Positions 59,701 through 62,033 of a stretch of DNA of 64,000 nucleotides are shown piece by piece. Source of the stretch: Rhizobium sp. Pop5. GTDB taxonomy: Bacteria > Pseudomonadota > Alphaproteobacteria > Rhizobiales > Rhizobiaceae. The stretch spans positions 2,976,001 through 3,040,000 of the forward strand of contig NZ_CP099399.1 in assembly GCF_024721175.1 (NCBI RefSeq), in the 5' to 3' direction. Below the pieces are notes generated by a model. It was not told the origin of the DNA. It worked only from the letters and a program-made list of their open reading frames with translations, and made no database searches. Positions within the stretch are counted from its first letter, which is position 1, and the number at the start of each line of letters is the position of its first letter. The position numbers and the translations under genes are program-made.

Positions 59701-59936
59701 ATGGCTCGCAAACACCTCACCGACCTCAGCTTTTGAGGTCACGTCGAAACGACGTAAATCCTTCCCGTCCGAAACCCGGGTCAAGACCGGTTTGCAAACC
59801 GTTCACGGCGACGTCGAACTAATCGAAAAACTCGGCCGCAACGATCCCTGCCCCTGCGGCTCCAGGAGGCGGCTTCAAGAATTGCTGCCTGCAATCCGGC
59901 CGCTATGACGGCATCGAGCGGGATTATTATTTTTAG
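59701..59936 (+). pseudogene. SEC-C-motif small protein, interrupted by two frameshifts
   Basis: After GGAGGAGGCAGCC an ATG at 59701 opens [11 protein letters not shown] and meets TGA at 59734. Skipping one T in the TTTT run at 59731-59734 continues the frame as [16 protein letters not shown]... to [12 protein letters not shown] second +1 near 59870 restores [21 protein letters not shown] and a stop at 59936. Corrected this way, the product is about 78 residues with a perfectly spaced SEC-C zinc motif (CPC ... CC). The total of 236 bases is two over a multiple of three, consistent with two single-base insertions. Either a recent pseudogene or sequence errors. Confidence 0.7.
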
Positions 59937-59954
59937 AGACCGTGACTGAAGATG

Positions 59955-59985
59955 ACGGCGCCCTTTACGAGAGGGCGCCGTTTAT
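59955..59985 (+). terminator. Rho-independent terminator
   Basis: ACGGCGCCCT (59955-59964), loop TTACGAG and AGGGCGCCGT (59972-59981), followed by TTATT. It lies 18 bp past the SEC-C stop and between convergent genes. Confidence 0.8.
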
Positions 59986-60009: not shown

Positions 60010-60624
60010 TCACAACTTGAAGCTTTTGACCTCGTTGCCTCGCTCGATGGTCCGGTTGGCGATGAAGCGTCCGGATTTTGCTGCCTCCTGCTTCTCAGCC
60101 TCGATTTGGTGCAACATGGCTTCGAGACGCCGAAGCGCCAGCGCCTTGTTGCGGTGCTGGGAGCGCTCGTCCCGCGCCGTCACCACGAGACCGGTCGGCC
60201 GATGCAGCACGCGAACCGCGCTGTCCGTCGTATTCTGGTGCTGCCCGCCGGGTCCGCCGGCTCTCAGCGTCTCGAAACGCAGGTCGGCCGGATCGATCGT
60301 CACCTCGCCGCCTTCAGGCCTGGCATCGATACACTGAACCGCAACAAACCAGTTCTGTCGTTTGTGACCGGGACGCACCGGACTCTTGAAGGTGAACCGG
60401 ATCGTGCCGCAATAGCCGGCCGCGATCTGCTCCGCCCCGGCGCCGTCGAGACTGACAATCGCCGACTTCGCGCCGTGTTGATCCGGCATCGGGCCAAGGC
60501 TGGCCTCGAAAGAGCAGCCAAGCCCGATTGCCTCGCGCTCGATAATGCCGAGAAGCGCTGTGAGCGCGATACGGCACTCCACCGGACCGTTGCCTGATGT
60601 CACGAGAAGATCAATAGCGCTCAT
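60010..60624 (-). CDS. prfH: Peptide chain release factor-like protein PrfH
   Basis: A 204-residue class I release factor homologue with the peptidyl-hydrolysis motif GGPGGQHQNTTDSAV (Gly126-Gly127-Gln128) and the basic C-terminus DERSQHRNKALALRRL. It lacks the codon-recognition domain 2 motif (PxT/SPF) and the N-terminal helical domain of RF1/RF2, as typical for PrfH. The start is ATG 60624; the longer open frame to 60729 is the tail of rtcB. It overlaps rtcB by 14 bp. PrfH proteins co-occur with a distinct RtcB and rescue ribosomes cut in the decoding centre. Confidence 0.9.
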   Translation of the reverse strand: MSAIDLLVTSGNGPVECRIALTALLGIIEREAIGLGCSFEASLGPMPDQHGAKSAIVSLDGAGAEQIAAGYCGTIRFTFKSPVRPGHKRQNWFVAVQCIDARPEGGEVTIDPADLRFETLRAGGPGGQHQNTTDSAVRVLHRPTGLVVTARDERSQHRNKALALRRLEAMLHQIEAEKQEAAKSGRFIANRTIERGNEVKSFKL

Positions 60625-61834
60625 AACCGCTCCCTCCTTCCCTGCGATGGTCGGGTTTTCGCCGGCGCTGTTCGACCTCCGCTTCATCAACCGCCTTCTT
60701 GAAGGTGACGAGCGGCCGAAAGCTCGCAAGTCCGATGATCAGCCCCTCATTTTCGAGATCGCTCACCACCTGCCCGGCATCCTTATAGGCCGATGCTGCC
60801 TCTTCGACGACGAGAGCGCGATCGTCACAGATCGCGATACCTCCCCAAGTATTCCGCAACAGTAGTTCGCGTTCGGAGCGATTGCGGCCGACACGTCCAT
60901 GCATTGTGGCCCGGTCATACTTGCGGCCAGCCCCATGAGAGATACCGCCGAGCGAACGGCTGACGCCGGCACCCGCGACAACCAGATGGCTGAGGCTCGC
61001 GCGCGATCCCGCAATCGGCGCCAATTCGCCGGGTGCGACGGCCGCCGCACCCTTGTAATGCACAAACCCGCGATCTGAGCGACGAACGAGATTGTGCGGT
61101 ATGTCGGCGATGAGGCTGAGATCGGCGCGAAGCGCCGCAGCCGCCCGCGCGGCAATGAGCCGCCGGTTCAGCGATGCCCAGGCAACGCAGCGATCATGGC
61201 TCGCAAGCCAGGCAGCACCTGCTTCCGATCCGGGATCGAGACCGGCGACAAGCGCCGGATGTGCAGCCGCGGCTTCGCTGAATACCGCGGCACCGAGGGA
61301 GCGTGAACCAGAATGAACGAGCAGATAGAGCCGCTGATCGTCGAGACCAGCCGCACGTCCGCCCTCGGCAAGCTCTTCAACGGCCTGCAGCTCGCAGAAA
61401 TGATTGCCGCCGCCGATCGTGCCCAAGGCTTCCGGTGCCAGATCGGCAGGCAGACCAGCTTCAGCGAGCATGTCGCCAGCATCGCCGATTGCCTGCGTTT
61501 CAAGCCGGCGAAGCCGCTCCGCCGCTTTGTCGATCCTCAGTTTGCGCAGCGGCAGATCGAGAGCGAAGAGTGACATCCCGCAGCCGATGTCGTTGCCGAT
61601 CAGCAGCGGGTGCAGCCGGGACGACAACAGCGCCACGCCGGTCGCACCGTATTTGCCGGGGTGCAAATCCGGAAAGGCGGCGATTTCCAAGGCGCCCGGC
61701 AGGCGAGACATTTCGTCAAGCTGGTCCAAGGCAGCGCCTTCGATCCAGGCAGAACTGGAAAAGAAACGATTGATGAGCGCCGGAACTGCCGCCGGCGCCA
61801 TCAGGGAGCTTTCGCTCCCAATAGAATTGCCCAT
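60611..61834 (-). CDS. rtcB: RtcB-family RNA ligase (RtcB2-type, PrfH partner)
   Basis: A 407-residue RNA 3'-phosphate ligase with metal and GTP motifs in order: FPDLHPGKYGATG, NDIGCGMSLF (Asp82, Cys85), GTIGGGNHF (Asn144, His145), VHSGSRSLG (His174), IPHNLV (His247) and the guanylylated His300 in SHGAGRKYD. VHYKGA replaces the usual VHRKGA. It is shorter than housekeeping RtcB and overlaps prfH. It is thought to reseal 16S rRNA cut by ribosome-targeting nucleases. No archease or RtcA/RtcR gene is next to it. Confidence 0.9.
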   Translation of the reverse strand: MGNSIGSESSLMAPAAVPALINRFFSSSAWIEGAALDQLDEMSRLPGALEIAAFPDLHPGKYGATGVALLSSRLHPLLIGNDIGCGMSLFALDLPLRKLRIDKAAERLRRLETQAIGDAGDMLAEAGLPADLAPEALGTIGGGNHFCELQAVEELAEGGRAAGLDDQRLYLLVHSGSRSLGAAVFSEAAAAHPALVAGLDPGSEAGAAWLASHDRCVAWASLNRRLIAARAAAALRADLSLIADIPHNLVRRSDRGFVHYKGAAAVAPGELAPIAGSRASLSHLVVAGAGVSRSLGGISHGAGRKYDRATMHGRVGRNRSERELLLRNTWGGIAICDDRALVVEEAASAYKDAGQVVSDLENEGLIIGLASFRPLVTFKKAVDEAEVEQRRRKPDHRREGGSGYERY

Positions 61835-61862
61835 GATGATACTCTGGATATGAGTGGTCTTT

Positions 61863-61882
61863 CATCGCCTGAGATGGCGATG
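61863..61882 (-). promoter_or_regulatory. Palindrome upstream of rtcB
   Basis: CATCGCC (61863-61869) and GGCGATG (61876-61882) flank 6 bp, about 30 bp before the rtcB start; a second palindrome CAGCCA-T-TGGCTG lies at 61899-61911. I saw no sigma-54 (-24/-12) element of the E. coli rtc type. Confidence 0.35.
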
Positions 61883-62033
61883 TTCAACCGGCCTGCATCA
61901 GCCATTGGCTGAGTTAAACCGAAACCCTCTCGGGGCGTGCGGAGATATTTGTCATCGTGTCGCTCCCTTCATCCAGAACAATCGAGAGCGCCCCTTTAGG
62001 GGAAGTCGGATATAAATGCAAGCATGGCGCGCT

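Follow-up and report, generated by a model that had tools for sequence, protein, structure and literature searches.

A conserved leader reading frame upstream of the rtcB2-prfH operon of Rhizobium sp. Pop5 and its probable role as a translational switch

Results

The rtcB2-prfH gene pair

Within a 64,000-nucleotide stretch of the Rhizobium sp. Pop5 genome (contig NZ_CP099399.1, positions 2,976,001 to 3,040,000; hereafter ‘the window’), two intact reading frames on the minus strand, together spanning 60010-61834, encode an RNA ligase of the RtcB family (rtcB2; 61834-60611, 407 amino acids) and, directly downstream, peptide chain release factor H (prfH; ATG at 60624, stop at 60010, 204 amino acids). 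The 14-nucleotide (nt) overlap of the two genes (60611-60624), pointed out in the original prediction made for this DNA, is real. Upstream of rtcB2 we see a further element, absent from that prediction and constituting the new part of this report, the pair itself being already known: a leader open reading frame (ORF) of 13 codons (MTNISARPERVSV, then stop; 61955-61914, minus strand), preceded by its own Shine-Dalgarno (SD) sequence (AAGGGAG, 61963-61969, minus strand; anti-SD duplex -6.9 kcal/mol).

Both proteins score above the cut-off of a curated NCBIfam model—PrfH against the equivalog model TIGR03072 (183.8 bits; cut-off 166.65) and RtcB2, narrowly, against TIGR03073 (release_rtcB, the prfH-linked RtcBs; 273.7 bits; cut-off 271.8)—which confirms the proposed identity of the pair as RtcB2-PrfH, a type already published. 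RtcB2 stays under the cut-off of the related RtcB model NF007153 (343 versus 407), and the top two Protein Data Bank chain matches of PrfH are themselves PrfH chains (7sa4_8, the best, E 2.5e-34, and 9mor_A). The predicted GGQ motif of the release factor is present (GGPGGQ), together with SGNGPVEC, in which GP replaces GG at the first-base contact; with domain 1 also missing, the protein shares these features with the published description of PrfH (PMC1586002). The alignment with RF2 starts at about RF2 residue 128, such that domain 1 is absent and the codon-recognition region kept, in agreement with published descriptions of PrfH (PMC1586002; PMC6514570); the earlier statement that this PrfH lacks the codon-reading domain is therefore wrong. 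The SXY ‘anticodon’ described for PrfH in 2006 (PMC1586002) is not found here, the window protein having SPV and its aligned, mostly alphaproteobacterial relatives SPA, SPV, SPF, SQV or SRI; given this variability, SXY is no family-defining feature among them.

The VHYKGA motif of RtcB2, previously singled out as non-standard, is certainly there, but is one lineage variant among HYKGA, HRKGA and HHKGA forms: in 115 aligned homologues the commonest forms of this region are FVHYKGAA (36), WLHRKGAA (19), and FVHHKGAA, FVHHKGSA and FLHRKGAA (7 each). The D-I-G-C-G-M and N-H-F motifs of RtcB occur in 115/115 of these sequences, and HSGSR/HTGSR and HGAGR/HGSGR in each of the 14 commonest motif forms. 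No PADLOC model matches either RtcB2 or PrfH. By analogy with the E. coli work, the two proteins would reseal colicin-E3-cut 16S ribosomal RNA (rRNA) and release the peptide; any action against rRNA-cutting toxins in this organism is likewise extrapolated from E. coli.

Could the ligase instead be an ordinary housekeeping RtcB, engaged in tRNA repair and placed beside a chance neighbour? Its catalytic motifs are those of the general RtcB family, but the TIGR03073 score and a tree of 112 RtcBs both speak against it, a single branch (support 0.984) splitting 64/64 prfH-linked sequences, together with L165 and L211 (both in TIGR03073 but with no adjacent prfH detected), from the 46 others. Furthermore, prfH adjoins rtcB2 in 80/80 of the loci listed, out of 544 confirmed in a scan of genome contigs (these 80 supply our figures from that scan), and the module is accessory in the genus, with RtcB2 above the TIGR03073 cut-off in 30/148 genomes (any match, 47/148). 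We regard a housekeeping role as scarcely credible. The tree and the genome count therefore dispose of two outcomes that the original prediction had named as damaging to it: this RtcB does not cluster with housekeeping RtcBs, nor is the pair a core gene of every Rhizobium; its accessory status stands.

Also borne out, by Pfam over the whole genome, is the absence of rtcA and archease. The accompanying claim of no sigma-54 rtcR system is true of the rtcB2-prfH locus only, since contig C3 has an RtcR (266.5 bits), whose neighbours are a Ro60/TROVE protein and a second, distant RtcB. This second RNA-repair locus (C3:337000-342858; L253 1-5859) also holds an integrase-type transposase. The published RtcR-RtcBA system, which is controlled by RtcR/sigma-54 and includes RtcA (PMC12606134), thus has an RtcB ligase in common with our pair but differs in that neither rtcR nor rtcA adjoins the pair, the RtcR-Ro60-RtcB locus being separate.

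A leader ORF accompanies rtcB2-prfH

Moving from the leader towards rtcB2, we see the same order of elements in relatives of the window locus: SD, short ORF, hairpins and, immediately ahead of rtcB2, a conserved CCAGAG. Comparable short ORFs, alike in length and place, also occur in far relatives and in gammaproteobacteria, including the E. coli and Klebsiella copies of a plasmid collection. For counting, we required a leader to begin with ATG, to run for 9-20 codons, to have an SD duplex of <= -4.5 kcal/mol and to stop >=35 nt ahead of rtcB2, and applied this fixed rule to 160 prfH-linked and 48 prfH-less loci, which removal of duplicates and of one short upstream (L137) reduced to 140 and 47; L016, L139, L213 and L216, where no start was obtained, lie outside these counts. 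The rule finds a leader in 117/140 distinct prfH-linked upstreams versus 4/47 RtcB loci without prfH and a mean of 10.0/140 upstreams when these are dinucleotide-shuffled. At two stricter SD thresholds the figures become 105 and 91/140, with 2/47 each for loci without prfH and 5.8 and 4.8/140 for shuffles. Six leaders with a weaker SD were added by hand for later tests (giving 123), and the length is 13-15 codons in 119/123.

Within Rhizobium the leader peptide is well conserved (MTNISARPERVSA and close variants); among clades the peptides differ, with length and RNA element kept. Here and below, ‘alpha’ and ‘gamma-type’, the latter the more distant, denote groups divided not by taxonomy but by identity of RtcB (below 43.5%; L190 stays in alpha), L136 falling in neither. 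A TTTGCRG-type element is spread over the reading frames of gamma-type leaders (21 and 9 of 30), and the first CCC of 92 alpha-group leaders falls in the three frames 50, 23 and 17 times, being absent in 2. With the element thus placed in different frames, it is the leader RNA, and not the peptide, that is conserved.

The leader is also specific to its locus. A search of the genome with the leader pattern (<=3 mismatches) returned none besides the window leader, and a covariance model, R1, built from 25 leaders of Rhizobiales-type loci (one of them, L106, in a record titled Bacillus subtilis), has a single match in the window, at the leader (61971-61833). Across the 148 genus genomes R1 gives 31 strong matches (E <= 7.4e-12), many resembling the leaders from which it was built; they correspond to the 30 genomes with rtcB2 above cut-off plus one further genome (G053, see below). 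Among 20 weak matches (24-28 bits), the two examined (L250, L251) are starts of longer coding frames, and we take them as chance. Rfam has no family in the leader, its one match between 59900 and 62200 being at chance level (sau-6072, 59911-59985, E 0.61).

Coevolving pairing between the SD flank and the rtcB2 start

In the predicted fold, the sequence immediately 5' of the leader SD (61970-61983, minus strand) pairs with that directly before the rtcB2 ATG (61835-61850, minus strand; predicted pair probabilities 0.44-0.96), the resulting helix, P1, covering the rtcB2 ribosome-binding region. From clade to clade the strands of P1 are unrelated in sequence, being UUCUGGA/UCCAGAG in Rhizobium and UUUGAAAAC/GUUUUCAAA in Roseibium-type loci. 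A pooled pairing test of 55 representatives mixes the alpha and gamma-type groups, and was replaced by a split test. In the alpha group (38 representatives), duplexes between the rtcB2 start region and the 42 nt preceding the leader start have a mean energy of -16.65 kcal/mol for native partners versus -11.94 for swapped ones, with 0/20000 permutations as good; at the strictest similarity cut (0.55), which leaves 13 divergent representatives, the result is again 0/20000 (z -4.8). Neighbouring-segment controls (c5xs4, s1uxc3, s1uxs4b) stay flat whichever of the four cuts is applied (z -0.95 to +0.55).

This pairing is absent in the 16 gamma-type representatives (z -0.2). There it is the leader ORF that coevolves with a downstream segment (u2xs3; z -5.7, 0/20000), accompanied by less pronounced signals for 1:2 (z -2.2) and 3:4 (z -2.35), which fall to -1.8 and -1.2 at stricter cuts, with 8 representatives, whereas u2xs3 shows no coevolution in the alpha group (z +0.1; -0.8 to +0.1 across cuts). 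Judging from these sequence comparisons, our verdict is that the leader is a specific, coevolving feature and that the alphaproteobacterial pairing would represent a new variant of leader-ORF control.

The remaining helices of the window leader (all minus strand) are P2, in which the SD (GGG.GCG, 61967-61961) is predicted, from duplex and minimum free energy (MFE) calculations, to pair with CGCCCC inside the leader ORF (61937-61932); P3, a hairpin of 6 pairs just after the leader stop (TCAGCC/GGCTGA, 61898-61912); and P4, a hairpin of the MFE fold (CATCGCC/GGCGATG, 61863-61882). For P2 the alpha group gives no sign of covariation (z +1.5), each of the 6 pairs of P3 has both-side changes in at least one of 28 sequences, and the RNAalifold consensus of 28 leaders contains 22 pairs, 9 of them with both-side changes. 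Further upstream, the alignment reveals a promoter-like CTTGCA-17-CTAAAG (61994-62022, minus strand; TTGC in 30/30 distinct rows), from which transcription would begin just 5' of P1.

A proposed switch

We think it rather probable that rtcB2 and prfH form a ribosome-repair operon whose translation is switched by the leader, rtcB2 being unmasked once a ribosome halts at the leader start. As published for E. coli, ribosomes with a broken decoding centre would have their peptide released by PrfH and their 16S rRNA resealed by RtcB2. In the resting RNA, 61983-61970 would pair with 61850-61835 and so mask the rtcB2 start in the cell. The 13-codon leader ORF would be translated from its own SD, and a ribosome completing it would leave the mask in place; a ribosome whose decoding centre is damaged or blocked would be detained at the leader start, covering the 5' strand of P1 and leaving the rtcB2 start free. 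Damaged ribosomes would in this way serve as the signal that induces their own repair operon. That the position of the ribosome is sensed, with ribosomes damaged in the decoding centre halting early, is the simplest reading; such an early halt would be in line with the effect of an early amber codon in the P. aeruginosa leader PA5471.1, which raises ArmZ (PMC13041342).

We folded leaders with a ribosome footprint blocked out at the leader start or at its end, and compared the cost of opening the rtcB2 start. In gamma-type leaders a start-positioned ribosome opens it more cheaply than an end-positioned one in 13-15/16, depending on the footprint (p 3e-5 to 1.3e-3). In the alpha group it does so in 17-27/38, again by footprint, with p 0.011 at an upstream reach of 15 nt and 2.9e-5 at 25. 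For the window leader itself the opening cost falls from 8.30 to 5.15-5.28 kcal/mol, at 18-25 nt reach only.

Saying this, a number of points weigh against the proposed switch. In the window the opening effect is absent at 12 or 15 nt reach (free RNA 8.30, start-positioned ribosome 10.04 or 9.06 kcal/mol), and at 15 nt the larger opening comes from a mid-leader ribosome (7.02 kcal/mol) and not from a start-positioned one. For the alpha group, start and end do not differ significantly at a reach of 12 nt (p 0.23), and in 6-11/38 it was the end-positioned ribosome that opened the rtcB2 start more. Among the alpha controls, c5xu2 (leader ORF against the far-upstream region) is mildly low (z -2.16, 351/20000), a gamma-type control (s1uxc3) deviates in the opposite direction (z +2.76), and in the pairing tests 11 leader starts had been assigned manually, mostly to an upstream in-frame ATG. 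The leader goes undetected in 23/140 prfH-linked upstreams: 6 of these have a visible ORF of this kind with a weaker SD and another (L195) has a leader-type ORF further upstream, but in 12 others inspected (L203, L205, L206, L210, L138, L212, L116, L011, L007, L010, L189, L192) no leader ORF is visible. R1 matches 3/22 distant prfH-linked leaders (and 0/36 RtcB loci without prfH), and is therefore narrow. Lastly, a consensus promoter scan did not report the promoter-like CTTGCA-17-CTAAAG.

Comparison with known leaders

The E. coli ATCC25922 RtcB2-PrfH operon, which protects against colicin E3 (PMC9223846), has the same two genes in the same order as the window, and the window RtcB2 shares ~40% identity with L158 and L161, the E. 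coli copies in the plasmid collection; the pairing logic of the E. coli leader, however, differs. The term ‘leader’ does not occur in the E. coli protection paper (PMC9223846), and a search of the open-licence literature returned no description of an rtcB2-prfH leader outside P. aeruginosa.

In that species, PA5471.1 is a 13-amino-acid leader with Q3 and F4 (PMC13041342), ~250 bp upstream of PA5471 (armZ) (PMC3516279), through which armZ responds to ribosome-targeting drugs or stalling (PMC12057347, PMC13041342, PMC3516279); ribosomes stalled on it induce armZ (PMC13041342). PA5471, itself related to RtcB, shares an operon with PA5470, which is predicted to be a release factor (PMC3516279, PMC12057347, PMC13041342), and a truncated homologue, ykfJ of E. 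coli K-12, is reported to be inducible by 4-azaleucine (Morita 2006, cited in PMC3516279). For PA5471.1, attenuation of transcription through a 3:4 terminator has been proposed (PMC13041342, PMC12057347), and elsewhere the term used is translational attenuation (PMC3575510). As there, a leader ORF of 13 codons, preceded by an SD, stands in the window before an RtcB-like gene and then prfH. The 2:3 pairing of the PA5471.1 model, by our own reading of it, corresponds to the u2xs3 signal, seen in gamma-type but not in alpha leaders, and a simple scan of the window leader found no intrinsic terminator; where PA5471.1 has its proposed 3:4 terminator, the window has the predicted helix between SD flank and rtcB2 start.

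At locus L165 a 13-amino-acid leader (MIQFSTLCRLRLA), with Q3 and F4, lies 254 nt before an RtcB2-like gene. This fits the description of PA5471.1, and the known regulator therefore appears to be one instance of a wider rtcB2 leader. The RtcB2/ArmZ-like protein of L165/L252, next to which no full-length prfH was detected, has LQRKGA where L132 and L158 have LHRKGA, i.e. Gln for the His of HxKGA. This His is a metal ligand in RtcB; it is as if ligase function had been lost and the role of regulator retained.

In translational attenuators of the ermC type, the position of a ribosome on a short leader sets access to a downstream start, and the proposed switch follows the same principle. It differs from them in that the leader precedes a repair operon and in that its sensor seems to be the leader start instead of a stall site specific to a drug.

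More tentatively still, at a level of confidence just short of evenly balanced, we suggest that a helix-guarded leader start is the ancestral ribosome-damage sensor for rtcB2-prfH across Proteobacteria, of which the alphaproteobacterial form would be a new, purely translational version. The induction of armZ by antibiotics in P. aeruginosa would then be a by-product of this ribosome-damage alarm, later rewired to efflux. The literature we consulted gave no explanation of how broken ribosomes are sensed and RtcB2-PrfH repair switched on; a conserved leader switch offers a testable answer, would join the literature on rRNA repair by RtcB2-PrfH to that on drug-induced efflux through ArmZ/PA5471.1, and would provide a natural reporter for decoding-centre damage.

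Alternative readings of the leader

The leader might act through its product, a specific peptide stalling the ribosome as in the nascent-peptide arrest of ermCL and SecM. The well-kept peptide of Rhizobium would suit this, but between clades the peptides differ at conserved length, and the RNA element lies in different reading frames; on this frame evidence a specific arrest peptide is unlikely in the extreme, and we rejected it. Were the RNA instead a binding site for a protein or ligand (autoregulation by RtcB2 or PrfH, for example), with the short ORF incidental, one could account for the multi-helix consensus folds predicted for several clades; an SD-preceded ORF of near-constant length, kept across clades with differing RNA sequences, and the want of any Rfam match to the leader, make this quite improbable in our view.

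Somewhat better placed, though still unlikely, is a transcription attenuator of the kind proposed for PA5471.1, with the state of translation setting whether an intrinsic terminator (segments 3:4) forms. The strong u2xs3 and weaker 1:2 and 3:4 signals of gamma-type leaders fit such a four-segment device, whose 3:4 terminator is a published proposal (PMC13041342), but in the alpha group it is the SD flank and the rtcB2 start that coevolve and not u2xs3, and the window leader has no terminator-like site by simple scan.

A mimic of the colicin E3 cut site was also looked for. TCGTAAC occurs <=60 nt before the leader ORF in 10/123 leaders and AAGTCGTAAC in 2 (L115, L109); TCGTAAC matches 16S rRNA and AAGTCGTAAC corresponds to the 16S stretch around the E3 cut site, and we leave their presence unexplained. 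They may be promoter or chance.

Distribution, decay and neighbourhood of the module

The module is accessory and at times lost, as seen from its presence in 30/148 genomes, an empty-looking site, shortened prfH genes (L031 and L046/L054) and genome G053, where only a deleted rtcB2-prfH relic remains. The site in question is at L064, where preA and an AraC-type gene lie <60 bp apart, with the module ~2 kb off, a junction that looks like an empty site. The AraC-type gene of the window adjoins the module in 14 of the 80 listed loci (11 titled Rhizobium, 3 ‘Rhizobiales bacterium’; L049-L061, L077), with preT-preA on the opposite side in 13 of those 14. In G053 (C1:1065869-1066000; L245) a leader-like RNA stands before the rtcB2 and prfH pieces left by the deletion, its leader ORF no longer reading as in relatives. 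By alignment, the rtcB2/prfH offset is -14 in 30/80 listed loci, +5 in 32 and other in 18; among genus loci it is -14 in 24/30.

The neighbouring SEC-C gene is broken, as noted originally, its pieces lying in three frames. In 6/6 relatives compared, the middle piece reads on into the same end in the wrong frame, and given this shared broken state we rejected the relic as a partner of the module; we saw no link between the two. Between the relic and prfH (59955-59981) lies a ten-base-pair inverted repeat, followed on the plus strand by a T-rich stretch.

On a Klebsiella pneumoniae IncC plasmid typed as conjugative (NC_021667.1, L159), rtcB2-prfH and its leader are found near sul1. Pairs are also present on IMG/VR contigs classed as viral (L007-L011), in one of which (L011) prfH is ~1.5 kb from rtcB2, and 284 phage records match PrfH, 34 of these across most of the query.

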